Origin: Halomicronema sp. CCY15110
Lineage (GTDB): Bacteria > Cyanobacteriota > Cyanobacteriia > Phormidesmidales > Phormidesmidaceae
Assembly: GCF_016888165.1 (NCBI RefSeq)
Contig: NZ_JACSWC010000435.1
Location: 1 to 64,000 of the forward strand
DNA length: 64,000 bases
Direction of reading: 5' to 3'
Part shown: in pieces, positions 1 through 50,249 of the stretch
How the letters are laid out: every line of letters starts with the position of its first letter
How positions within the stretch are numbered: position 1 is the first letter of the stretch
The notes under the pieces: generated by a model
What the model was told of the DNA's origin: nothing
The model's input: the letters and a program-made list of their open reading frames with translations, nothing else
The model's database searches: none
Program-made: the position numbers and the translations under genes

Positions 1-42
1 TTAAGCTAACTGTTGAGCTCTGAAAACCCAGGTTTAGCCCGA

Positions 43-1728
43 CTATTTAGTACATTTGGTCACCTTAACAGGGGTAGTCGAGTAATGGTTAAGTACTCGC
101 AGAGAGTTAGGGCAGGTATCAATATTTTTCTCAAAATAACGTACCTTCTTATCTTGATAGTCCCGTCTCCCCTGGGCAGAATTCTTCCGTCGAGTAATCA
201 AAACTAGATTTCCGAGTTTGTGAGTCATCTTCTCACGTTGCTCTGGAGTGAAGTCTTTTACCCACTGGCTCTCTTCACTAGGGTTCTGAGGCAAAATGTG
301 CTCAATCGATAAAGTGGAGAAATTCATCTTGTGAGCATGGTTTGTATAGACAAAATCCAATTTAAGCAATACATATCGCACAAATCTGCGTCCATAGATA
401 TCTTCTTGGATCACCCGCTTAAAGGAGTCACTATCCATATCAAAGCAGTCCGATTCAAAAAGCTCATCCAAAGTGACTGCTTGATCAATTATGCGAGTGA
501 TATTATTCATAGCTTCAATTCGATCTGTGGGACTATATTGACAGATCCAATCTGCTGAAGCTTTATTGTCAAGAGCAACCAGAAAACGATAAATCTGGTC
601 ACCACCAAATTTATCGTGGTATCTCAAAAGAGGAGGGATCCAGTCTGTAGATTGCAAACCTGTCAACATAACCTGGATTAGATTGTCAAATTTGAAGCTA
701 TTCGTAAAATCATAGTTACTGCCAGAAAATAGTTTTCCATAGTGGTCCAAATATCTTTCCAGCATCAAGAAGGTTTCTTTACCCTTCTTGAGTAATGGCT
801 GCTTCAACTCACCCGTTGATTTGTTTTTCTCTTTAGGTTGATAAATTTTGTCTTCAAACTCCTGAAGCAAATTCAACCTTGCCTTGTCCTTCACCAAGAT
901 GGTTCGAATATAGTTCAGGAATCGGTCAAAGTCATCTCCAAGTTCACCTTCGGCCCTTTCCCAAAACTCTGCATATTTTCTCTTGTCGCTCTCTAGCTCT
1001 AGAGCCCCCAGATTTACAGACTTCAAGATGTCACTGTTGCGGAGTGGCACCCCCCGATTGTTGAGAATAGTAAACAGGCGGAAAGCGTCTTCCAGATCTT
1101 CTGTCGCAACAAAAATTAGTAAGACGTTATTCAAGAGAAAGCCTAGTAGCTCTTCAGGATCTACATTTTGCTTCTCAAAAAACTTGCGGATTTCCAATAC
1201 GGCAAAAGCAAGATTTCGAGCAGAAATATCTGTCGCTGATTTCCCAAAGCTCTCCAGTGCGTCTACAAGATTGGTTCCACCATAGGGCTTGATGAACTTA
1301 TCTAGAAAGTCTTCTACTTTTTCTCTAATGCTAAAAACCAACCGAGTTCTTTCTGGAATTTTCTTGAACTTACTTGCTTTTTGGTAGATACATCTCTGGC
1401 AATCTTCTCTAGCTTCTTCATCTTCCGACAAATCGCGAATTACAGCCAGCAACATGAGAAGTGTGGTCATTCTCTGCTGGCCATCGAGCAAGTCGTTCTC
1501 ATCAAACTCCTGTCCAGCTTTAGGATTGGCGGCTTTAGCCTGGAAGACAAAAGAACCTAGAAAGTACTCGGACTCGGGCTTGCTCTGCATAGCAAATGTC
1601 AAGTCATCAAGCAGATCATGGATTTCCTCATAGCCCCATACATAAGGTCGTTGATACTCTGGAATGCGAAACCACAAATTACTGAAAATATCCTTGACCA
1701 GAATTTTCTCACTTTTGATTTCGCTCAT
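43..1728 (-). CDS. GmrSD-type DUF262/DUF1524 protein
   Basis: A 561-residue protein of the DUF262-DUF1524 family, the single-chain relatives of GmrS/GmrD type IV (modification-dependent) restriction enzymes. Near residues 22-30 is the EYQRPYVW segment and near 82 the LDGQQR motif of the DUF262 (ParB-like NTPase) fold. The C-terminal DUF1524 part carries an HNH-like nuclease signature: IEHILPQNP near 476, then LGNLVL with conserved Asn/Arg near 505. The ATG at 1728 has an AGGAG 8 nt upstream. Family knowledge suggests NTP-dependent cleavage of modified phage DNA; that activity is inferred. It diverges from the helicase operon, and its base composition is visibly more AT-rich than the core genes after 13.8 kb, as expected for acquired DNA. 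Confidence 0.88.
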   Translation of the reverse strand: MSEIKSEKILVKDIFSNLWFRIPEYQRPYVWGYEEIHDLLDDLTFAMQSKPESEYFLGSFVFQAKAANPKAGQEFDENDLLDGQQRMTTLLMLLAVIRDLSEDEEAREDCQRCIYQKASKFKKIPERTRLVFSIREKVEDFLDKFIKPYGGTNLVDALESFGKSATDISARNLAFAVLEIRKFFEKQNVDPEELLGFLLNNVLLIFVATEDLEDAFRLFTILNNRGVPLRNSDILKSVNLGALELESDKRKYAEFWERAEGELGDDFDRFLNYIRTILVKDKARLNLLQEFEDKIYQPKEKNKSTGELKQPLLKKGKETFLMLERYLDHYGKLFSGSNYDFTNSFKFDNLIQVMLTGLQSTDWIPPLLRYHDKFGGDQIYRFLVALDNKASADWICQYSPTDRIEAMNNITRIIDQAVTLDELFESDCFDMDSDSFKRVIQEDIYGRRFVRYVLLKLDFVYTNHAHKMNFSTLSIEHILPQNPSEESQWVKDFTPEQREKMTHKLGNLVLITRRKNSAQGRRDYQDKKVRYFEKNIDTCPNSLRVLNHYSTTPVKVTKCTK

Positions 1729-2032: not shown

Positions 2033-4141
2033 GTGACTGCTTGGGCCATTTCCGTAGCTAACACTTTCTTAAATGAACTCCTGAACCTGCCTCAGGCAAT
2101 TCAGAAGAAAGTCAGCAAAGTCGTCAAAGTGCTTGAGGCAGACCCGATCTCAGCTCAAGGGGATGCCAAAAAGCTCAAGGGCTACACCAATAACGTGTAT
2201 CGGGTCCGGCTGGGTGACTATCGCCTGTTCTACAGTTTCGGCCAGGGCTGGGTTAAGCTCCTCAGCATCCGCAAGCGTGACGAGCGCACCTACGAAACTG
2301 AAATTCCCGAGTTCGACGCTCCAACCCCACCGCCTAACGAGGGTGTCCTGACGCCCCAGCCGCTTGAAGCCTCCTCTGTCGCTCCACCTGTAGACCACAG
2401 CATCGCCACTACAGTTCAACAAGAGAACCCGGCTGAAACCACTCAAATTACGACAGCTCTGCCCATTGAGCTGACAGCAGCACTCTTGGAACAGTGGCAA
2501 ATCCCAACGGACTACTGGCCAGACATTCTCAAGGTCGACAACTCCGAAGAGATTCTAGAATTGCCCATCCCCGAGCATTTGATGAGCCGCATTGTCGATA
2601 ACCTGTATCCCCGTCCTATCGAAGAAATCTCGGCTCAGCGGGAGTACATTCTTCAACAACCTGAGGATTTAGATCGCTTTGTAGAAGGTAACCTGAGTGC
2701 TTTTCTGCTCAAGCTCGATCCAGAACAAGAAAACCTGCGGGAGTTTGGCAAACAAGGCCCCGTATTGGTGAAAGGTGGTCCCGGTACCGGAAAATCTACC
2801 CTGGCCCTTTATCGGGTGGAAACCCTCCTGAGCCGGGGATATAAGTCGATTCTGTTTACCACCTATACCAAAGCCCTAGTGGCTTATTCTGAGCAGCTTT
2901 TGGCTCAACTTTTAGAACAATCCCCTGAAAAAGCTGGGGTCAAAGTGAGTACTGTCGATGGATTGGTGTATCGGCAGTATGTCACCACCTATGGCAAACC
3001 TAAATTGGCTAAAGACCGCCAAAGCGAGGCCATGCTACAAGAAGCCCTCCAAACCGCAACGATGCCTGGTCAAAATCTCTTTGCTCGTCGGGCACGGCAG
3101 CAAGCCCTGGAACGGCTGGGGCCGACTTACTTACTTCAGGAATTTGACACGGTTATTGAAGGCTGGGGAATTGACACTCTTGAGGCATATTTAGCCCATG
3201 CGCGGCGGGGCCGAGGAATTCCCCTTCAAGCATCAGTTCGTGAAGCAGTGTGGGCCACTTACCAGTGCTGGCGTCAGCTCATGGCCAAAGCTGGGTTTAT
3301 TACCTTTGCTCAAATGCGATCGCAGGCTCTTGACCTCGTTCTCAAACTGGAGGAAAAGCCTTACCAGGCTGTTGTTATTGACGAGGCCCAAGATTTATCT
3401 CCTGTATCTCTACGGTTTCTCTTGGCCTTGCTCCCCTCCCTGGACGGCGTTTACCTAACGGCTGATGCTTCTCAGTCCCTTTACCAGCGGGGCTTTAGCT
3501 GGAAGCAAATTCATCAGGACTTGCGAGTAACAGGCCGAACGCTGCTACTCAAGCGAAACTACCGCAACACCGAGCAAATTATTACGGCCTGCACCGCTAT
3601 TCTCCAGAATACCGAGGCAGGCGATGTGGAATGCCTGGTGCAGGAACCTTCGCCACATCAGGGAAACATCCCGACTGTGCGGTTGACAGATAGCTTAGAT
3701 CAAACTGCCAAACTCATTCATGACTTTCTGATTAAGGCAGCGAGACATCACCGTATTCCCCTCCATGGTGGGGCGGTGCTCTGTCCGAGTAATCAGATGG
3801 GTGAGAACATGGCTCAAGCCTTATCCAATCTCGGGTTGGAAACCCAGTTCTTCCACGGCAACAAGCTTGATCTTAATGCGAACTGCGTCAAAGTCCTGAC
3901 CTTGCACTCGGCCAAGGGGCTAGAGTTCCCATTTGTCGCTGTTGTTGGGCTACAAGAAGGACGACTCCCCAAGCTAGATCCCAACCTTCCTGATGAAGAA
4001 GTTCCCGTTGCCATAGATGAACAGAGGCGCTTATTTTTCGTCGGCTGCTCCCGAGCCATGCGAGCCCTCACAGTCATTGGTTCCCGCTCAAATCCATCTA
4101 CTCTGCTCAATTCCCTGACTGCTCCCTCCTGGCAAAGATAG
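2033..4141 (+). CDS. RelE/ParE-like domain fused to UvrD-like SF1 helicase
   Basis: A 702-residue fusion. Residues 1-88 resemble a RelE/ParE toxin: the stretch with VYRVRLGDYRLFYSF followed by KLLSIRKRDERTY is the typical core strand pair and Arg. A Pro/Thr-rich linker (about 90-140) leads to an SF1 helicase: Walker A GGPGTGKST near 247, Walker B VVIDEAQD near 449, the LTADASQS motif III region, the LHSAKGLEF motif near 623, and the C-terminal motif VI Arg in FFVGCSRAM. No antitoxin gene precedes it. The GTG start is used because no in-frame ATG occurs before about residue 180, but no clear ribosome binding site is present. It ends 8 nt before the SF2 helicase, so the two are probably co-transcribed. 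The toxin fold may act as a nucleic-acid or ribosome-binding module; that is inference. Confidence 0.88.
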   Translation: MTAWAISVANTFLNELLNLPQAIQKKVSKVVKVLEADPISAQGDAKKLKGYTNNVYRVRLGDYRLFYSFGQGWVKLLSIRKRDERTYETEIPEFDAPTPPPNEGVLTPQPLEASSVAPPVDHSIATTVQQENPAETTQITTALPIELTAALLEQWQIPTDYWPDILKVDNSEEILELPIPEHLMSRIVDNLYPRPIEEISAQREYILQQPEDLDRFVEGNLSAFLLKLDPEQENLREFGKQGPVLVKGGPGTGKSTLALYRVETLLSRGYKSILFTTYTKALVAYSEQLLAQLLEQSPEKAGVKVSTVDGLVYRQYVTTYGKPKLAKDRQSEAMLQEALQTATMPGQNLFARRARQQALERLGPTYLLQEFDTVIEGWGIDTLEAYLAHARRGRGIPLQASVREAVWATYQCWRQLMAKAGFITFAQMRSQALDLVLKLEEKPYQAVVIDEAQDLSPVSLRFLLALLPSLDGVYLTADASQSLYQRGFSWKQIHQDLRVTGRTLLLKRNYRNTEQIITACTAILQNTEAGDVECLVQEPSPHQGNIPTVRLTDSLDQTAKLIHDFLIKAARHHRIPLHGGAVLCPSNQMGENMAQALSNLGLETQFFHGNKLDLNANCVKVLTLHSAKGLEFPFVAVVGLQEGRLPKLDPNLPDEEVPVAIDEQRRLFFVGCSRAMRALTVIGSRSNPSTLLNSLTAPSWQR

Positions 4142-4149
4142 GTATTGCA

Positions 4150-7100
4150 ATGAAGCTGCCAATCAAACTACAAGAACTCCTTCAGCAAAGCGATGAGTCA
4201 ATCGCCTCCATTAGCCGACTGATGGCCGTCGGCAATGCCTGGGTTGACTGTTCTGACGTGGAAGTTGTTGCCGATGACAAACTAGCTTTACTGTTGTCGG
4301 AAATCCCCACCGATTGGGACATTATCGAGCTTTCCGAAGTCATTGATGCAGACACTCTGTCAGACTCCCTGGCTGAACAAATCGTTGGAGCCATAGACCT
4401 ACGCCTGGGTCGGGTGACAGTCCAATCGGCTCCCACCTTTGCAGATGAGGATGAACCCTCCAAGACCCTGGATATCTTCAATCTGCGAGATGAAGTGATT
4501 GAGGACTACCGCACCTACATCGAAAGCTTTCTAAAGATCCGAGATCCAAAGGTTGAAGCGTTTGTTCAAAACGAACTCGACAAAGGAGAACTCTGGCCAG
4601 ATTCCCTGGTACAGCTCAACCCCTCTTACAAGCCGGGGGCCTATATCCACCCTCTAATAGCAGAAGGACTGCTGCATCCTGACTGTGCCCGGTATTTCCC
4701 CGACTACGTCAGTAAGTACCCCTTCCGCTATCACCAGGAGCAGGCTTTTCGTGTCGCCCACCGACAGGAACCCTACGTCCTCACCACCGGTACAGGGTCG
4801 GGGAAGAGCATGACCTATGTTGTACCCATCATTGACGACATCCTGCGAAACCCCCAGATTCAAGGAGTGAGAGCCATTCTGGTTTATCCCATGAATGCCC
4901 TGATTAACTCCCAAAAGCAGGAGTTCGATAAGTTTCTTGGAGAAGTGGGGGGCACCCATATTCGGGTAGAGCAGTACACCGGCCAAGAAAACCTGGCCCA
5001 AAAGACCAGCATCCAGCAAAATCCTCCTCAGATTATCCTGACTAACTACGTGATGCTGGAGCTAATGCTCAGCCGTACCCATGAAGAGAAGTTAGTAGGC
5101 TCCCAAGATCTGAAGTTTTTAGTCCTAGATGAGTTGCATACCTACCGGGGTAGACAGGGGGCCGATGTCGCCATCTTGGTGCGTAAACTCCGCCAACGCT
5201 GCGGTCAGAATTTGCTGTGTATCGGCACTAGCGCCACCATGTCTACGGAGGGCACCCGCGATGACCGTCGCCAAACCGTTGCTAAGGTTGCCAGCAAACT
5301 TTTCGGGATTGAGGTGAAAGCATATAACGTTATCGATGAAACCCTGGAACGCTCGATTCCAGGCCCAATTCCTATTGCCGAGGTACTAAGGGATGCTCTT
5401 TTGAGCAGTCTCCCTCATGAAGAAACCCAAACCCTAGTCAAGGAAGCATTTCAGGGGCATCCTCTGGCGGCCTGGATAGAGATGGCGTTTGGCCTGGAAG
5501 ATGAAGAAGGTCACCTGGTACGCCGCACGCCTATTTCTTTATCTCAGGGAGCTAGTCAGCTCTCAGAAATCACCCAGGTATCCCTAGATACTTGCCAGGA
5601 TATGCTCCGTCGGATGTTCTTGTGGGGCAGCAAAACTGGAGGATTAGCATTTAGGTTGCACCAGTTTATTTCCCAGGGGGGAAGTGTCTACTCCACGGCA
5701 GAGCCTGCGAACAAGCGGGAACTGACTTTAGAGGGGCAATACGCTACTACCGAAAAACGGCTGTTATATCCCCTGGTATTTTGCCGAGAATGTGGCCAGG
5801 ACTATTATCTGGTCTATTTCAACCGAGAGCAAGACCAGATTCAGCCTCTTTTGCCTACCCAACTCACCTTCAACCCTGATAATGCTGATATTCAGGAAGG
5901 CTATTTGACTCTGAATGAACCCGGTCTGTGGAATGAAAGTGAAGCAGATCGACTACCGGATACTTGGTTTAAGGAAACTAAGCGGGATGGTCGAGTTCCA
6001 AAGAAGGAATATGCACCATTCATTCCTCAACGTCTAAGAGTATTGCCTGACGGCAAAATCACGACTTCCCTATTAAGCGGGACAGAATTCTGGTTCTCAC
6101 CCAAACCCTTTACCGTATGTCTTCACTGTGGAGTGGTCCACGACCGTCGTAAAAGTGAATTTACCAAGTTGTCTCGCCTCAGTAGTGAAGGACGCAGTAC
6201 AGCCACGACACTGCTTTGTCTCTCTACTGTCAACCGGCTAAAAAGCAGTGATGCGGTGAAACCAACTGCCCAAAAGGTCTTAAGCTTCACCGATAACCGT
6301 CAGGATGCCTCCCTCCAGGCCGGTCACTTCAATGATTTTGTGCAAACTAGCCTACTGCGAGCCTCCCTCAATGGAGCCTTAACCAAACAGAAAAGATTAA
6401 CTCATACTGACTTAGTGAAGTGTGTTATCCAGCAAATGAATCTCCCTCAAGAGGTTTACGCCCGGCAGGCTTCAGATATTGAAGGGCCGGGCAAGCGACG
6501 CAATGAACGAGCTTTTCAAAAGCTGGTTGAATATCGTCTCTATGAGGATTTAAGAAAAGGATGGCGATTCGTTCAGCCGAATCTAGAGCAATGTGGTCTA
6601 CTGGCGATTCAATACGAGGGCATCGACGAAGTGTGTGCTTCAGAACAGCTTTGGGAGCGCCATCCTCATCCCCTATTGCGGCAAGCCACTCCTCAGCAAC
6701 GGTGTGATGTGGTGAAAGCGTTGCTGAATCAACTCCGAAAAGATTTGGTTCTAGATGCCGTTCTCCTGCAACCAGCAAATATTGACCAATTACTGAGAGA
6801 GGTTAATCAAGCGATCGCTGATCCTTGGTGTTTTGACGCCTTCGAGCGACTCCATGAAGCCCGTTGGGCGACAACAACCCCAAACGGGACTCGCAAGGTT
6901 CAAGTCAAGCTTACAGCCCGCAGCAAAATTGGTCGATTCTTGCGGTCTGAGCGAGCCTGGCCCTGGCTCAACCAGCCAATTTCTGAAGATGACTACAGCC
7001 GACTCATCCATGCCCTCGTAACTGCCCTCGCCGATGCAGGTTACTTTCTCCAGGAAGAGAACCGGATTCAGCTCAGAGTAGATTCTCTCCAGTGGATCGC

Positions 7101-9513
7101 CTGTAAAGCAACTCATATTTCACCAGACCCGATGACTTCAAGGCGGTTACAAGGTAGTGAAGATTCTCAAATTAGGGTCAACCAGTTTTTCCAAGACTTT
7201 TATGAACGCAGCAGTTCCGGTATCCATACTTTTGAGGGGAGAGAGCATACAGGCCAGGTCAGAAATGAAAAGCGACAAGAGCGGGAAGCAAAGTTCAGGG
7301 ATGGCAAACTAGCTACCCTATTTTGTTCGCCCACTATGGAATTGGGCATCGATATTGCTGATCTGAATGTGGTTCACATGCGAAATGTACCGCCAAGCCC
7401 GGCCAATTATGCCCAGCGCAGCGGTCGGGCCGGACGCAGTGGGCAAGCTGCGATCGTGATTACTTACGCTTCCATAGGCAGTGGTCATGATCAGTATTTC
7501 TTCAAGCGACAGGACCAAATGGTTGCTGGGGTGGTCGTGCCGCCAAAATTGGAATTGGGTAACCAAGACTTGATTCGATCTCACGTTCACTCCATCTGGT
7601 TGGCTCACACTGACCTCTTTCTGGAGAACTCCATGAATCAAGTCCTTGATTTGGACTTAGATAGTTATCCTCTTAAAGAAACGGTCAGGAATCAGCTCAC
7701 CCTCACCTCCGCTGGCTTAGACAGTTGTTTCCAGGCAGTAAAATCAATTCTGTCTGATTGGGTTTGCCAAGAAGATTTAACTCAAGCTTCTTGGTACAGC
7801 GAAGACTGGTTGCGATACACCCTTGATACAGCCTTGAACAGTTTTGATCGGGCCTGTAACCGCTGGCGAAATCTTTATATTGATGCGGTTACCCAGCTTA
7901 ACACTGCACGACAAGTTATTGACCGCTCCGCTAAAGGTAATGTTACTCAGGAAGATAGAAACAATGCTGAAGCCCTTGAAAAAGAGGCAAGACGCCAGGT
8001 TGATCTGCTTGTGGGTCGGGTAAAGAAAGGCAGCAGCCAGACCCAATTTGAGTTCTATCCCTATCGTTATTTTGCGGCAGAAGGATTCCTGCCGGGATAC
8101 AACTTTCCTCGGCTGCCGGTGCGGACTTATGTGCAATCAGGAGAAGAAGGAGAGTTTATTGCTCGTCCAAGGGTGGTTGCGATTCGGGAATTTGCTCCAG
8201 GCAACATTCTTTACTACGAAGGTAACAAGTTTCAGATTGCTAAAACTCGAATCCCTGTCGGGGGAATCGATGCAGCTTATCAACGAGTCGCGTTATGTCC
8301 GACTTGTGGCTATTTCCATGACGGCGACAATTCTCTTCGTGAGTTGTGTGAGAACTGTGGCTCTCGATTGGGACCAGATAGCCAGGGGAACCCGGCCAAG
8401 GTCAGCCGACTACTCACAATGGAAACTATGCTGACCCGCCGCCGCGAACGTATCACTTGCGATGAAGAAGAGCGTCTGAAATATGGTTACAACATCACCA
8501 CCCATTTCCGTTACAGCAACGGACGCAAGCAGCAAGCAAGAGTCCACGCGGATGATGGCACTAAGCTGATGGATTTGACCTTTGGTGAAACAGCTAAAAT
8601 TTGGCGTATTAACCGGGGATTAACCCGCAGTCAGGAAAAAGGCTTCAAACTTGATTTAGCCAGTGGTCGATGGGGGGAAAACATACAAGATAAAGAGGCA
8701 TCTATGCCGGAATCCCTTCATACAGAGGTTCATTTGCTAGTAGATGACACTTGTAATGTGCTTCTGGTTGAACCAACTCAGGTGCCGACTAACGATGGAG
8801 AAGCATTCCTTGCTAGCTTCCAATATGCCTTACAGCGAGCAATTCAGGCCGTTTATAAGTTGGAAGACGATGAATTAGCCTCAGAAAGGCTTGGTCAGGG
8901 AAAGCACATGCTGTTCTGGGAAGCATCTGAAGGGGGTGCTGGAGTGATCTCGCAGATTCTGGAAAATCCTGAATCATTCCAACGACTGGCAACCGAGGCG
9001 CTAGACATCTGTCACTTTAATCATGAAAAAGAAAACTGCTCTCAAGCCTGCTATGAGTGCTTGCTTTCTTACCGCAACCAGTTTGATCATCCCCTTTTGA
9101 ATCGGTACCTCATCAAATCTTGGTTAGAAAAACTCATTACAAGCCAAGTCTGCACATCCTCTATCGACACGGATTCGCGGCTTGATCACTATCAGTTACT
9201 CCGTTCTCAAACCGATCCCAATTCTGAGCTTGAGCGACAAGTCTTAGACGAGATATTTCAACGGGGAATTCAGTTACCTGACTCAGCCCAGTTATTGGTC
9301 GAGGCGGCAAACTGCAAACCTGACTTTGTGTATATCGAGAAAAAAATTGCCATTTTCTGCGATGGTTCAGTACATGATCACCCTGAACGACAGGAGCAAG
9401 ACCAGATAGACCGCGACAACTTGAAATATAGCGCCGGATACCATGTGCTGACTCTGAAATATAGTGAGAGCTGGCAATCTAAACTCGCGATACTCGCAAG
9501 TCTACTTGGGTGA
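4150..9513 (+). CDS. giant SF2 helicase, DUF1998-type, with C-terminal nuclease-like domain (DruE-like)
   Basis: A 1787-residue protein. Helicase motifs: TGTGSGKS (near 214), YPMNALINSQ, DELH (near 326), GTSATMS, then after a long insertion SPTMELGIDIADL and QRSGRAGRSG (near 1087). Cysteine pairs that could bind zinc: CRECGQDY near 545, CLHCG near 658, CPTC...CENC near 1383-1405. A DUF1998-like end contains CYECLLSYRNQ near 1634. The last 70 residues, with KPDFVY, KKIAIFCDG and a trailing GYHVL, resemble the Vsr/DUF559-type PD-(D/E)XK endonuclease fold. Domain order and size resemble DruE of Druantia; DISARM DrmB also has DUF1998. No Druantia partner (DruA-D, F-H) is nearby, so the partner here is the upstream RelE-SF1 fusion. 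A DNA translocase-nuclease defence role is inferred. Confidence 0.9.
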   Translation: MKLPIKLQELLQQSDESIASISRLMAVGNAWVDCSDVEVVADDKLALLLSEIPTDWDIIELSEVIDADTLSDSLAEQIVGAIDLRLGRVTVQSAPTFADEDEPSKTLDIFNLRDEVIEDYRTYIESFLKIRDPKVEAFVQNELDKGELWPDSLVQLNPSYKPGAYIHPLIAEGLLHPDCARYFPDYVSKYPFRYHQEQAFRVAHRQEPYVLTTGTGSGKSMTYVVPIIDDILRNPQIQGVRAILVYPMNALINSQKQEFDKFLGEVGGTHIRVEQYTGQENLAQKTSIQQNPPQIILTNYVMLELMLSRTHEEKLVGSQDLKFLVLDELHTYRGRQGADVAILVRKLRQRCGQNLLCIGTSATMSTEGTRDDRRQTVAKVASKLFGIEVKAYNVIDETLERSIPGPIPIAEVLRDALLSSLPHEETQTLVKEAFQGHPLAAWIEMAFGLEDEEGHLVRRTPISLSQGASQLSEITQVSLDTCQDMLRRMFLWGSKTGGLAFRLHQFISQGGSVYSTAEPANKRELTLEGQYATTEKRLLYPLVFCRECGQDYYLVYFNREQDQIQPLLPTQLTFNPDNADIQEGYLTLNEPGLWNESEADRLPDTWFKETKRDGRVPKKEYAPFIPQRLRVLPDGKITTSLLSGTEFWFSPKPFTVCLHCGVVHDRRKSEFTKLSRLSSEGRSTATTLLCLSTVNRLKSSDAVKPTAQKVLSFTDNRQDASLQAGHFNDFVQTSLLRASLNGALTKQKRLTHTDLVKCVIQQMNLPQEVYARQASDIEGPGKRRNERAFQKLVEYRLYEDLRKGWRFVQPNLEQCGLLAIQYEGIDEVCASEQLWERHPHPLLRQATPQQRCDVVKALLNQLRKDLVLDAVLLQPANIDQLLREVNQAIADPWCFDAFERLHEARWATTTPNGTRKVQVKLTARSKIGRFLRSERAWPWLNQPISEDDYSRLIHALVTALADAGYFLQEENRIQLRVDSLQWIACKATHISPDPMTSRRLQGSEDSQIRVNQFFQDFYERSSSGIHTFEGREHTGQVRNEKRQEREAKFRDGKLATLFCSPTMELGIDIADLNVVHMRNVPPSPANYAQRSGRAGRSGQAAIVITYASIGSGHDQYFFKRQDQMVAGVVVPPKLELGNQDLIRSHVHSIWLAHTDLFLENSMNQVLDLDLDSYPLKETVRNQLTLTSAGLDSCFQAVKSILSDWVCQEDLTQASWYSEDWLRYTLDTALNSFDRACNRWRNLYIDAVTQLNTARQVIDRSAKGNVTQEDRNNAEALEKEARRQVDLLVGRVKKGSSQTQFEFYPYRYFAAEGFLPGYNFPRLPVRTYVQSGEEGEFIARPRVVAIREFAPGNILYYEGNKFQIAKTRIPVGGIDAAYQRVALCPTCGYFHDGDNSLRELCENCGSRLGPDSQGNPAKVSRLLTMETMLTRRRERITCDEEERLKYGYNITTHFRYSNGRKQQARVHADDGTKLMDLTFGETAKIWRINRGLTRSQEKGFKLDLASGRWGENIQDKEASMPESLHTEVHLLVDDTCNVLLVEPTQVPTNDGEAFLASFQYALQRAIQAVYKLEDDELASERLGQGKHMLFWEASEGGAGVISQILENPESFQRLATEALDICHFNHEKENCSQACYECLLSYRNQFDHPLLNRYLIKSWLEKLITSQVCTSSIDTDSRLDHYQLLRSQTDPNSELERQVLDEIFQRGIQLPDSAQLLVEAANCKPDFVYIEKKIAIFCDGSVHDHPERQEQDQIDRDNLKYSAGYHVLTLKYSESWQSKLAILASLLG

Positions 9514-9629: not shown

Positions 9630-9866
9630 TTAGCGAATATCTGCCTGCAAGACAATTTTGGTCAAAATCCGCATCACCTCGCCAGCGCGCCCCGTTGGCA
9701 AAGGATTTGACCACTCCTTCATCTCAGCAAACCGGAGGATGTGGAGAGATTTCACAATATTTTCAACGCCCTCTGGTGACCCCATCACCATGATGCGCAC
9801 CCTATCGCGCCCATTTTCTTGCGGTCCCTGAGCAGAGGCCGCAGTAATATCAATTTTCCCAGCCAT
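9630..9866 (-). CDS. small conserved cyanobacterial protein of unknown function
   Basis: A 78-residue protein beginning MAGKID; an upstream in-frame start at 9899 would add 11 residues, but the ATG at 9866 has a GAG-type ribosome binding site and a more natural N-terminus. The central VRIMVMGSPEGVENIV segment followed by FAEMKEWSNPLP and GEVMRILT is a pattern I recognise from small proteins annotated as hypothetical in many cyanobacteria. No function is known to me. It diverges from the XRE regulator gene, 138 bases away. Confidence 0.6.
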   Translation of the reverse strand: MAGKIDITAASAQGPQENGRDRVRIMVMGSPEGVENIVKSLHILRFAEMKEWSNPLPTGRAGEVMRILTKIVLQADIR

Positions 9867-10004
9867 ATTCTCAGATTCCACGAAACACTTGACAGACATT
9901 CACGACCTCGACGTATGCCAGTAGGCTTACATCCTCAGTGTAATTCAATGTATGCCATCCGGCACACATTTACCGCATCAAAAACCTCTGACACGATTAG
10001 AGGC

Positions 10005-10256
10005 ATGGGAAAAGCTGGGAAAGTCTTAAAACAGGTGCTAGAAGAGTACGGGATTAGCCAAAACGGTCTCGCGACCACGCTAGGCACAGAACGCGGCACC
10101 GTCTACCGCTGGGTACATGAATTGCGAGACCCATCGGCTGAAACTCTGGTGGAAATCACCAATGCTCTGCGCACACTTAACCCTGATGCTGCCCAGACCT
10201 TTGTTCAGCGCTATCTTGGCGATGTTGCACAGGGGAGTGCTGAGGGGGATTCTTGA
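10005..10256 (+). CDS. XRE-family helix-turn-helix protein
   Basis: An 83-residue DNA-binding protein. The segment LEEYGISQNGLATTLGTERGTVYRW is a Cro/C1-type helix-turn-helix, followed by a short tail with VEITNALRTLNPDAAQTF. The reading frame is open further upstream to 9819, but the ATG at 10005 gives the usual length for this small cyanobacterial regulator, and the N-terminal extension would look unlike protein. Target genes are unknown; the divergent 9630-9866 gene is the natural candidate. A strong hairpin follows 40 nt after the stop. Confidence 0.75.
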   Translation: MGKAGKVLKQVLEEYGISQNGLATTLGTERGTVYRWVHELRDPSAETLVEITNALRTLNPDAAQTFVQRYLGDVAQGSAEGDS

Positions 10257-10373: not shown

Positions 10374-11984
10374 TTAATCGGCTACTTTCCACCAATTCTT
10401 CGCCTTCTCAGTTCTTTCGCGGCTGGTGAGCTGACTGTAGGTGCGATCCGCTTCTCGGACGGAGTGCCCCATCATTTCGGCCAGAGCCTCATCGTGATCG
10501 CGATTCCCATACTTCCGTTGCCAGGTGATCGCAATGCGCCGGAAATCATGGGCTGAAGTGCGCTTCGGTTCTCTGTAGAGAACGCCCGTTGCCGAATACA
10601 TGGCCCTGGAGACGACCTCACTTAATTTAGTGCCCTCGTAGGGTTTGCCTACATCATTCGGCTTCTGAGGCGCTAGACGAATAAAGACTCGCTGATGCTC
10701 GGTGGGAATCTTGGGTCGCCAGACGTTGAGCCATTCATCTAAGTCGGCGGTGAGGTTAGATGGGAGGGCAAATTCACGATCCTTTCCAGTTTTGCTACCC
10801 GTTTTGTGATCGTCAGGTTGCAGCCGCACCACATAGCCATCCTCTTCCCGAAACAAAGTTCGCCCCACTTCTAATTCGCGAAGTTCGCGTTGACGGATGG
10901 GGCAGTAGGTCAAAATAGCGATGAGCAGATACCGTTGCCAGCTTTGCATAATGGCCCGGTCGGGTCGTCGGTGCCCAGCGACGCTGCGTTTGCCCCCTGT
11001 CCGCTCCAATCGCGTCCGTTGAGGCGCACAGCATTTGCGGAGATATTTGGTCACTTCGACGCATTGCTCAAAGGTGAGCAATTTCTCTTCCAGCATCTCC
11101 TTGGAGGCGGTGCGTTTGGGTTCTTTTTCCCGTTTGTGGGCAATTTCGAGGAGCAGCGCCCGAATCTCTTCGATCTCCTCAATGTCACGGTATTTCGCCT
11201 GCTTAGATCGGCGATAGTGCTGCCACTTGGCAACATTTAAGGCCGCAGCCCCCTTAAGCGTTGCCCAGCCGTACCCATTACCGCGATCATTGATGCCCCA
11301 AGCAATGAATTCATCCAGCCACTCGCGATCGGCCATCATTTCCAGCTTGAGTTCTTCCAAGGGAACATCCTGAAAGCGATGCATCCATCCGAAAAAGAGG
11401 CGAATTGCGTGCCAATAAGTTGTAAAGGTGGTCTGCCGTAGCGGCGAATCCTTTCGCTTAGGAATTTCGGGGGCTGTCACAAAGCGATGAAATTGATCGA
11501 CCTGGCGCTTAAGTGCGGGGCTAAATTCTTCTTCCTTAAGCCCGTATGGGTTGGCAGAGAATTGCCGCCGCTTGCCTTTTCGTTCTCTGCCCAGGTTGTA
11601 CCCCGCCCACATGCGGGGCGTTAGCTTTCCGTCGTATGTGCCAAAGGCGTCATGATACCAAGCCTGGTCTTGAGCCCAGCAGATAAATCGATTGAGGGCT
11701 GACTTGTAGTTTGCCAGGGTACCGTCGCTGAGTTGATTGGCAGCGGCGATAGATAGCAGGTGAGTCTCGGGATTCTTGAAGTCGCGGATCGGGAGTTCCT
11801 TCAGCGCCGAAAGCAAATCCTCCTCTTTTTTTAGTTCACTTGGCGAGAATCCATATCCTGGAAGGACATACTTTCTCAGCGTGGTCTTCAAGTTCCCGAT
11901 CAATTTTGGATTGCCTTGAGAAATCCTTGAATCCTGAAAAAGCTCTAGTACATCGAGCACGGTGCCTGGAACGTAGTAAGTCAT
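10374..11984 (-). CDS. tyrosine recombinase (phage integrase family) 1
   Basis: A 536-residue integrase from the ATG at 11984 (MTYYVPG); an upstream in-frame start at 12047 lacks support. An N-terminal SAM-like core-binding region (about 70-250) is followed by the catalytic domain. Visible active-site features: Arg in CPIRQRELREL, HDFRR, and the final GHS with Tyr in DRTYSQL. It is longer than XerC/D-type proteins (about 300 residues) and resembles site-specific integrases of large islands. It lies next to a second, unrelated integrase on the same strand, as is common at the end of an integrated element. Which of the two moves this island cannot be read from the sequence. Confidence 0.88.
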   Translation of the reverse strand: MTYYVPGTVLDVLELFQDSRISQGNPKLIGNLKTTLRKYVLPGYGFSPSELKKEEDLLSALKELPIRDFKNPETHLLSIAAANQLSDGTLANYKSALNRFICWAQDQAWYHDAFGTYDGKLTPRMWAGYNLGRERKGKRRQFSANPYGLKEEEFSPALKRQVDQFHRFVTAPEIPKRKDSPLRQTTFTTYWHAIRLFFGWMHRFQDVPLEELKLEMMADREWLDEFIAWGINDRGNGYGWATLKGAAALNVAKWQHYRRSKQAKYRDIEEIEEIRALLLEIAHKREKEPKRTASKEMLEEKLLTFEQCVEVTKYLRKCCAPQRTRLERTGGKRSVAGHRRPDRAIMQSWQRYLLIAILTYCPIRQRELRELEVGRTLFREEDGYVVRLQPDDHKTGSKTGKDREFALPSNLTADLDEWLNVWRPKIPTEHQRVFIRLAPQKPNDVGKPYEGTKLSEVVSRAMYSATGVLYREPKRTSAHDFRRIAITWQRKYGNRDHDEALAEMMGHSVREADRTYSQLTSRERTEKAKNWWKVAD

Positions 11985-12215
11985 TGTTGGTATTAAAAAT
12001 GTGACTATTTCACTATTATACTGGTGCTTAAATCCGCCAAAAATCACATACCCAATAATATCTAAAGTCTTCAGAATCCATTCAGAAAAGGGCTTTTAGA
12101 AACTGCGACGACAATTAGCTTAGGATTCTAGGAATATGAATCCTATCAGCAAGGTAAGAGGTCTCATGGAACAAAATAATCCAAGTGAATGCCATTTGGT
12201 TGCTTATACAAAATA

Positions 12216-12271: not shown

Positions 12272-13471
12272 TCAGAACTCTGGAACAACCAGTTCACGCT
12301 TGTTCCCGGCATAGTGTTGATAGATGACCTCCGGAGAGTTGCCGACTAGACGAGCAACATCCTTCGCATCGAGTTTGCCCGTTTCTAGCGCATGGGTAAT
12401 GAAGGTATGGCGTGTCTGATAAATCTTGCGGTATTCAATCCCGAGCCCCTTCAGCACTTTCTTCCAAGTGCGATTTCTAAAGTTGTTGAGATCGATAGGT
12501 TCTTTCTTGGGGGAGGGGAACACCCAGGCATCCGAAGATGCCTCCTCGGGTTTGATGGATTTCAGAAGCTCTTGAAGTTTTGCGTTGCAGGGAAATCGCC
12601 GTCTTTCTTGGGTTTTTAACCCTTTGCGGATTTTCCTACCTCCATCGGTATTGATCAAAGCCTGCTCAAACAAAATCTGGCTGAAATCCTCAGTGACGTG
12701 TTTCCACTGTAAAACGACCGCCTCAGATGGCCTACACCCAGTCGCAAAGAGGAATTCAATCAGTGGGGCATAGTAGCTGTGCTTGTGCGCTGATTTTGGC
12801 GAACAAAACTGATTGCTTCGTAGGGCTTGGAGAATTGCGTCTCGCTCTTCTATCGAGAACGGATCGATTTCTGTAAAGCCCTCTTCTCCTGACGCCTTGG
12901 GCAGTTTGATTTCTGCCGCCATGCCGTCGAAAGGATTTTGGTCGGCAAGGCCAGACTTCATCGCGAATTTGCAGCAGGCACTGAGTCGGGTGATGAATCG
13001 CTTGGCTGAGTTCAGGGGGACTGTTTGTAAAACGTGATCCCGAATTTGGGAGGCTTCCTTCAAGCTATGGGTTGGCAGCTTCTCCAGGTAGCCTGTGTAG
13101 ACCCCATAGGTATATTTCATGGTGTTCTCGCTGCATTGGGGGCGCTTAAACTCCAGAAATGCCTCCCACAATTCTTTGAGAGAAACCTCGGGTGTAATTT
13201 CGGGTGTAATCTTCTCGGCAGTGCTGAGAGCCGATTGCGGCTTGTATTTGTCCAGGGTCTCATCGAAATTGCCCGAAACGATATCCAACTCAATCTGGCG
13301 AGCTTTCGCTTCTGCGGCCTTGCGATTGATCGTGGTATCGGGCAGGCCCATGCTCAAGTAGTGGCGCTTTCCGGCATAGCGAAATCGGAGTTGCAACCGA
13401 TTGTTGGAGTTGATGACTTTAACGGAACCTTTGGATGCTTTGGTTGAAGAGCTGGAGTGCATAGTTTTCAT
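12272..13471 (-). CDS. tyrosine recombinase (phage integrase family) 2, tRNA-Gly-associated
   Basis: A 399-residue integrase from the ATG at 13471 (MKTMHSS); a GTG at 13498 and an ATG at 13462 are alternatives. N-terminus: an arm-type DNA-binding domain (about 15-75, RLQLRFRYAGKRHYLSMG); then a core-binding domain (about 100-190); then the catalytic domain with Arg in ATGCRPSEAV, RHTFITH, and the terminal Tyr in YQHYAG. Its 5' end lies 180 nt from the 3' end of tRNA-Gly(CCC), the usual arrangement when an integrase uses a tRNA gene as attachment site. Four short repeats lie between the two. It is probably the integrase of the 1-13.6 kb island. Confidence 0.9.
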   Translation of the reverse strand: MKTMHSSSSTKASKGSVKVINSNNRLQLRFRYAGKRHYLSMGLPDTTINRKAAEAKARQIELDIVSGNFDETLDKYKPQSALSTAEKITPEITPEVSLKELWEAFLEFKRPQCSENTMKYTYGVYTGYLEKLPTHSLKEASQIRDHVLQTVPLNSAKRFITRLSACCKFAMKSGLADQNPFDGMAAEIKLPKASGEEGFTEIDPFSIEERDAILQALRSNQFCSPKSAHKHSYYAPLIEFLFATGCRPSEAVVLQWKHVTEDFSQILFEQALINTDGGRKIRKGLKTQERRRFPCNAKLQELLKSIKPEEASSDAWVFPSPKKEPIDLNNFRNRTWKKVLKGLGIEYRKIYQTRHTFITHALETGKLDAKDVARLVGNSPEVIYQHYAGNKRELVVPEF

Positions 13472-13501
13472 CAGATCGCATGTACTTAAATATGGCACAC
13501 G

Positions 13502-13650: not shown

Positions 13651-13722
13651 AGCGGGTGAACGGACTCGAACCGTCGACATTCAGCTTGGGAAGCTGACGT
13701 TCTACCACTGAACTACACCCGC
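13651..13722 (-). tRNA. tRNA-Gly(CCC)
   Basis: A complete cloverleaf on the minus strand: acceptor GCGGGTG/CACCCGC, D-arm GTTCAGTGGTAGAAC, anticodon stem TCAGC/GCTGA with loop TTCCCAA (anticodon CCC), T-arm GGTTCGAGTCC. CCA is not encoded. It reads GGG codons. The integrase-bearing island adjoins its 3' end. Confidence 0.93.
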
Positions 13723-49976: not shown

Positions 49977-50057
49977 TTCGGTCTCACCTCCTTATTGGGT
50001 TGAGAGCCAGTCGTCAATCAGCTTTCTGCCCCGATCTAGTCAAACCAAGCATCAAAA

Positions 50058-50081
50058 AAGCCCCGATAATCACCGAGGCTT
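50058..50081 (-). promoter_or_regulatory. attenuator/terminator in the rplJ leader
   Basis: Stem 50058-50065 with 50074-50081 (minus strand AAGCCTCG / CGGGGCTT, one T-G wobble) followed on the minus strand by a T run (50054-50059). It lies between rplA and rplJ, where L10-leader attenuation or partial termination is known to set different expression for L10-L12. Confidence 0.65.
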
Positions 50082-50249
50082 TAGAACACTTCCTAGATAA
50101 GTTGCGACGTCAAGCAGCAAGCTATCACAGCAAAAGTATTTCCAAACCTCGGTAGGACTTATGAATGCCTACTGTCTTCGGTTACTCATTCAATTGGGAA
50201 CTGAATTTGTATCCGTAGCGTTATCCCAAATCACGACAAAAAACCAAAC

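Follow-up and report, generated by a model that had tools for sequence, protein, structure and literature searches.

The gene pair in the window

The window is the whole stretch of Halomicronema DNA that was analysed, 64,000 nt of contig C374. It contains two large motor genes, one SF1 and one SF2, on the same strand and 8 nt apart, and the open reading frames and domains confirmed the initial annotation in this respect. The two genes and the surrounding features are listed in Table 1.

Table 1. Features at the locus; positions are those of the window, residue numbers those of the encoded protein.
Feature	Position	Strand	Details
77-bp repeat	1..77		also at C73 end (100%) and inside C375 (96%); contig end caused by this repeat; overlaps GmrSD gene 3' end
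GmrSD-type (type IV restriction-like) gene, accessory cargo	43..1728	-	divergent from pair
ArmD-like RelE-UvrD gene (gene 1)	2033..4141	+	702 aa, intact ORF
RelE/ParE-like domain of gene 1	2033..2296	+	aa 1-~88
UvrD/GajB-like SF1 helicase of gene 1			Walker A 248-256, DEAQD 450-454
ArmC-like YprA/DUF1998 SF2 helicase-nuclease gene (gene 2)	4150..9513	+	1787 aa, intact ORF
Gene 2 motifs			Walker A 213-220, DELH 327-330, QRSGRAGR 1089-1096, Zn CYEC 1634-1637
C-terminal Vsr/EDxHD-type PD-(D/E)xK nuclease motif region of gene 2	9316..9513	+	D1725, D1738-G1739, H1742-D1743
Small Cro/CI-type HTH gene	10005..10256	+	longest ORF 9819-10256; ATG at 10005
Integrase-like gene, SAM-like N-domain	10374..12047	-	69% identical to 535-aa element gene of L031
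Tyrosine recombinase of element	12272..13498	-	49% identical to L031 recombinase
tRNA-Gly(CCC), right attachment site	13651..13722	-	

Gene 1 begins with a GTG codon, and the N-terminus of its product lines up with those of the orthologues. The N-terminus matches the Pfam family ParE_toxin with an E-value of 2e-4, slightly short of the family cut-off, and the isolated N-domain matches PDB 1wmi (E=5e-6) and RelE3 (3bpq, E=3e-5). In the AlphaFold model, this domain is predicted to adopt a RelE-like arrangement of helices and strands, followed by a UvrD fold. The basic residues R57, R59, R64 and R82 of the RelE domain are invariant among 20 homologues. The UvrD core contains the Pfam domains UvrD_C and UvrD-helicase and matches UvrD (4c2t) in Foldseek, and the best PADLOC model for gene 1 is GajB. 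With ArmD of E. coli ATCC 8739, the strain used as the source of ARMADA reference proteins, gene 1 aligns over its whole length, N-domain included (25%, 730 columns).

Gene 2 contains DEAD, Helicase_C and MZB/DUF1998 domains in the Pfam profile search. Its best PADLOC model is DruE3, and neither DruH nor DruA-D is found nearby, which bears out the initial annotation of a DruE-like protein outside a Druantia system. The motif PDF...FCDGxxHD at residues 1724–1743 is invariant, and the alignment with E. coli ArmC takes in the C-terminal nuclease. The model of the last 498 residues is of low confidence (mean pLDDT 65). In Foldseek, the DUF1998 region of this model matches MrfA and DrmB, and there is a weak match to the EDxHD endonuclease I-Bth0305I (3r3p; probability 0.97, E 0.18). 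At this pLDDT, only the MrfA/DrmB match and the invariant motif were relied on from the C-terminal third.

Promoter and terminator scans gave results at chance level. Elsewhere in the window, positions 50045–50199 hold an ordinary ribosomal protein L10 leader (Rfam RF00557).

ArmA and ArmB genes and the carrier element

The ARMADA systems are described in a preprint (Bell et al. 2025, PMC12458937). According to its main text, ArmA is a BrxHII-like helicase, ArmB is a PglX-like methyltransferase and ArmC is a YprA helicase with a Vsr nuclease, while type II adds ArmD, in which a RelE-like N-domain precedes a GajB-like helicase. The type II system of E. coli is described there as non-abortive and as needing all four genes, and the Walker A lysine of ArmD is essential. 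A YprA protein with a RelE-UvrD protein therefore corresponds to the ArmC/ArmD of type II as presented in that text, and the pair is not without a named precedent, as had been supposed. The match is partial. The two protein kinds agree with ArmC and ArmD, but the YprA protein falls into the type I clade, the gene order is swapped and the ArmD is of a different lineage.

An ArmA-like helicase gene and an ArmB-like methyltransferase gene lie contiguously upstream of the pair and in the same direction in seven genomes (G049, G055, G029, G007, G077, G071 and G179). The same ArmA-ArmB order before D-C is found in Xenococcaceae (L144), in Pseudanabaena (L138) and on the closed plasmid pPg_03 of P. 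galeata. In the Halomicronema genome itself, contig C141 carries a homologue of ArmA (a BrxHII/DrmD-like helicase) and one of ArmB (a PglX-like N6-methyltransferase) with intact methyltransferase motifs DPACGSGHF and NPPW, followed by Septu PtuA-PtuB. Consistently, G179 holds an unbroken A-B-PtuA-PtuB-D-C cluster, which agrees with the A-B-PtuA-PtuB order of C141. The C141 genes and the pair diverge in parallel from G049/G055 (85/72/81/78%), and also in parallel when compared with G007/G029. Across 97 genomes, the methyltransferase clade co-occurs with the pair; the exceptions are G008, where the contig is truncated, and G078.

The right end of C141 overlaps contig C419 by 66 bp, and this overlap matches no other place. 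C419 carries a 49-bp, 88% copy of the 3' part of tRNA-Gly (C419:6967-7015) as the left attachment remnant, as well as two genes with homologues at the far end of the element in G049. A shared element is indicated by the left attachment site on C419, its overlap with C141, and the right attachment site on C374. A direct overlap between C141 and C374 was looked for and not found. Because the facing ends of both contigs fall in repeats, their junction is unassembled, and therefore the placement of all four genes in one locus is a strong inference from the contig sequences, not a direct reading.

In G049 and G055, perfect direct 48-bp tRNA-Thr repeats bound elements of 30.2 and 30.4 kb with the same content, and the pieces of the Halomicronema element sum to at least 28.5 kb. 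The carrier of the four-gene system is very probably a roughly 30-kb tRNA-integrated mobile element. The initial proposal of a defence locus on an integrated island was upheld: the GmrSD-type gene is divergent from the pair, and recombinase genes beside a tRNA-Gly bound the island. The left tRNA-Gly 3' half (C419:6967-7015, L227) differs from the tRNA gene in the window by paired T-stem changes, a pattern that would fit an element replacing the tRNA 3' end with its own copy when it integrated.

The accessory slot between the methyltransferase and RelE-UvrD genes differs from element to element, with Septu PtuAB, GmrSD, AAA-kinase, ParA/ParB or toxin-antitoxin genes (L099:873-4434, L100, L101, L034, L039 and L229:7345-9456). 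The GmrSD gene also lies beside the pair in L032, and GmrSD-type genes are found in L033 and L034. The slot appears to be a place inside the cluster where additional defence genes are taken up. ParA/ParB genes lie upstream of the pair in five relatives and were considered as a part of the system. They are missing in L033, and no close homologue of ParB was found in the Halomicronema genome (best match 26%, with an interrupted frame), so they were treated as element cargo.

Phylogeny and distribution of the two proteins

In a YprA tree of 62 sequences with SH-aLRT support, the window protein lies inside a clade of 100% support together with proteins of Actinomycetota, Pseudomonadota, Chloroflexota and others. 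This clade stands apart from those of type II ArmC, Druantia and other proteins. E. coli ArmC groups with the cyanobacterial type II proteins in a clade of their own. Most other members of the window's clade have the order YprA-ArmA-ArmB: of 80 loci fetched, 49 have ArmA next after YprA, usually with ArmB behind it. The preprint text gives the order YprA-ArmA-ArmB for type I and a reported cyanobacterial order with A-B before C (PMC12458937). By gene content, gene order and clade, the window's YprA clade is identified as ARMADA type I. Most type I relatives lack the stretch of ~85 aa at the N-terminus of the cyanobacterial YprA protein (window 4150-4410). It recurs in two large ORFs, together with an ArmA-like helicase (G021:C93, L084:679; G046:C1, L085:9407), and, judged from this distribution, is a portable domain.

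ArmD-like genes were found in only 6 of the 80 loci, namely three cyanobacterial ones (one fragmentary), L164, L177 and L204. Plasmids of Chroococcidiopsis and Dolichospermum carry close type I relatives that consist of A-B-C and lack ArmD, so ArmD is not an obligatory gene in the type I clade. In the RelE-UvrD tree two lineages were obtained. One comprises type II ArmD and its kin, including the copies of L164, L177 and L204, and the other is the lineage of the window. Aligned with hhalign, the N-domain profile of one lineage matches that of the other (about 83%, E 1e-5), and each ArmD-type N-domain tested falls into one of the two lineages.

The initial annotation had suggested that adjacency of the pair be checked elsewhere. 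Adjacent pairs were found in 10 sampled genomes with gene 1 identities of 51–100%, far beyond chance, and the genes are separated by 4–21 nt or overlap slightly in nearly all loci measured. RelE-UvrD of the window lineage, or its DISARM sister, adjoins a YprA-family gene in 20 of the 22 decidable genomes, and in all adjacent cases it is the co-oriented last gene before the YprA gene. Co-location thus stood for these genomes but not for G078 and G079, where the RelE-UvrD gene is present away from a YprA gene. In G078, the two proteins are encoded on separate contigs, and no close ArmB homologue was found.

Nine cyanobacterial DISARM loci carry the sister lineage of the window's RelE-UvrD immediately upstream of drmA, along with drmB and drmC wherever these are assembled. 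Of six loci measured, five have a 4-nt overlap between the RelE-UvrD stop and the start of drmA. This arrangement is not described in the papers retrieved. L046:8234-14310 is an example, and the Halomicronema genome itself has such a cluster on C351 (G000, L079), with RelE-UvrD cut by the contig end. On a plasmid of Deinococcus sp. NW-56 (L219:11980-14001), a RelE-UvrD 34% identical to that of the window lies between brxC and an N-6 methylase in a BREX operon.

Two other arrangements were observed. A separate and strongly supported YprA clade of about 1900 aa occurs in the sampled cyanobacteria (L051-L055, L065, L067, L069 and L087), most members having an ArmD-like UvrD gene directly downstream and several having ArmA/ArmB-like genes upstream; it is possibly a further ARMADA type. 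In L217:14109-19799 and L036:3350-9031, window-lineage RelE-UvrD genes lie beside strongly diverged YprA genes (about 1895 aa) and diverged ArmA/ArmB genes. Since copies of the window lineage adjoin such diverged YprA genes, RelE-UvrD has been exchanged between YprA clades.

Likely function of the system and relation to known systems

The pair very probably makes up the second half, armD-armC, of a four-gene anti-phage system of the ARMADA type, carried on a tRNA-integrated element. By sequence, the full set consists of an ArmA-like helicase, an ArmB-like methyltransferase, a variable slot, RelE-UvrD and the YprA helicase-nuclease. The pair had been proposed as a two-gene module, and a self-sufficient system of RelE-UvrD and YprA, working without methyltransferase or BrxHII helicase, would agree with their adjacency, common orientation and short spacing. 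Nothing further upstream is assembled in the window or in G200, and G008 is a short contig. However, ArmA and ArmB genes precede the pair in every adjacent-pair relative with upstream DNA available, and the methyltransferase clade keeps company with the pair across the 97 genomes. In the preprint text, deletion of ArmA or ArmB abolishes the activity of E. coli ARMADA II (PMC12458937). A two-gene system is thus highly improbable.

RelE-UvrD could also be an independent defence or toxin cargo gene that happens to lie in the variable slot ahead of the final gene of an ARMADA I system with only the three genes A-B-C. Its constant place as the last, co-oriented gene before YprA, its adjacency to YprA-family genes in 20 of 22 genomes and the 4-nt overlap with drmA in five DISARM loci make this reading unlikely, and the E. 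coli counterpart ArmD is essential according to the preprint text (PMC12458937). In its favor, close type I relatives do without RelE-UvrD, the slot before the YprA gene houses many unrelated accessory genes, and DISARM loci and one BREX operon also have RelE-UvrD. A DNA-repair pair of UvrD-like and MrfA-like proteins with no role in defence is scarcely credible. Although the YprA/MrfA and UvrD families include repair members, the YprA protein falls into the defence branch (similar to ArmC and DruE, with a C-terminal nuclease), RelE-UvrD is sporadic (9 of 292 genomes of the phylum), and the mobile element that carries the pair also has GmrSD and Septu genes.

For the four-gene system, a mechanism was derived from ARMADA, DISARM and Druantia III. 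Host DNA would be marked by the ArmB methyltransferase with the ArmA helicase, self-marking being inferred in the ARMADA preprint text too. The YprA protein would load on foreign DNA (on 3' single-stranded DNA in Druantia III), translocate and cut through its C-terminal nuclease. DruE, which is related to gene 2, has been shown to load on 3' single-stranded DNA and to cut long DNA (PMC13192584). RelE-UvrD would act as a partner SF1 motor needed for activity. Basic residues in RelE/YoeB-type RNases contact RNA. Since such residues are kept in gene 1, its RelE domain may cut or bind phage RNA; it may also dock on nucleic acid. Taken alone, this mechanism could equally well prove right or wrong. 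A wider idea is offered tentatively and is rather doubtful: RelE-UvrD of one lineage might be an exchangeable subunit common to ARMADA type I, DISARM and the BREX operon, so that modification-linked defence systems with unlike nucleases would have one RNase/translocase module in common, which might add RNA cleavage to the destruction of DNA.

A false two-gene candidate is thereby replaced by a testable and very probably complete ARMADA I variant with all parts identified. RelE-UvrD, which the main text of the preprint ties to ARMADA type II (PMC12458937), is common in two lineages to ARMADA, DISARM and once BREX. Because it is shared, exchanging it between systems would give access to its role, whether that is RNA cutting or a motor function for the YprA nuclease.

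Among the known systems, Gabija resembles the locus in the GajB-like UvrD core of gene 1. The fused RelE domain is a difference, and Gabija was rejected since no GajA (OLD-type nuclease) lies beside the pair, whose neighbors are GmrSD and YprA. Druantia III shares a YprA-family helicase-nuclease, DruE. In contrast, the Halomicronema locus has a Vsr-type and not a PLD nuclease, and its YprA protein belongs to another clade; DruH had no match in the 80 related loci or beside the pair. Druantia was rejected on the missing DruH and the YprA clade. Cyanobacterial DISARM (L041-L049) has a sister-lineage RelE-UvrD before drmA, a DrmD-like helicase and a DrmMI-like methyltransferase, and its DrmB shares the DUF1998 module with gene 2. 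However, DISARM splits the helicase and DUF1998 modules into DrmA and DrmB and has a separate PLD nuclease, DrmC, whereas the single 1787-aa Halomicronema protein holds both modules and a Vsr-type nuclease. Membership in DISARM, which requires separate drmA and drmB, was rejected.

ARMADA type II (E. coli ATCC 8739 and NCTC 12900) has the same four protein kinds, with RelE-UvrD homologous from end to end. It was ruled out by YprA clade and gene order: the Halomicronema YprA protein belongs to the other clade and has 1787 aa versus 2113 in type II, and the order is A-B-(slot)-D-C instead of A-B-C-D, with ArmD of the other lineage. ARMADA type I is alike in the YprA clade, the BrxHII-like helicase, the PglX-like methyltransferase and the C-terminal Vsr-type nuclease. 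Compared with type I, the Halomicronema locus adds RelE-UvrD immediately before the YprA gene, a B-D accessory slot and a tRNA-integrated carrier element. Judged by the main text of the preprint, a type I cluster that carries an ArmD of the lineage common to DISARM is new, although the supplements of the preprint may already list it.
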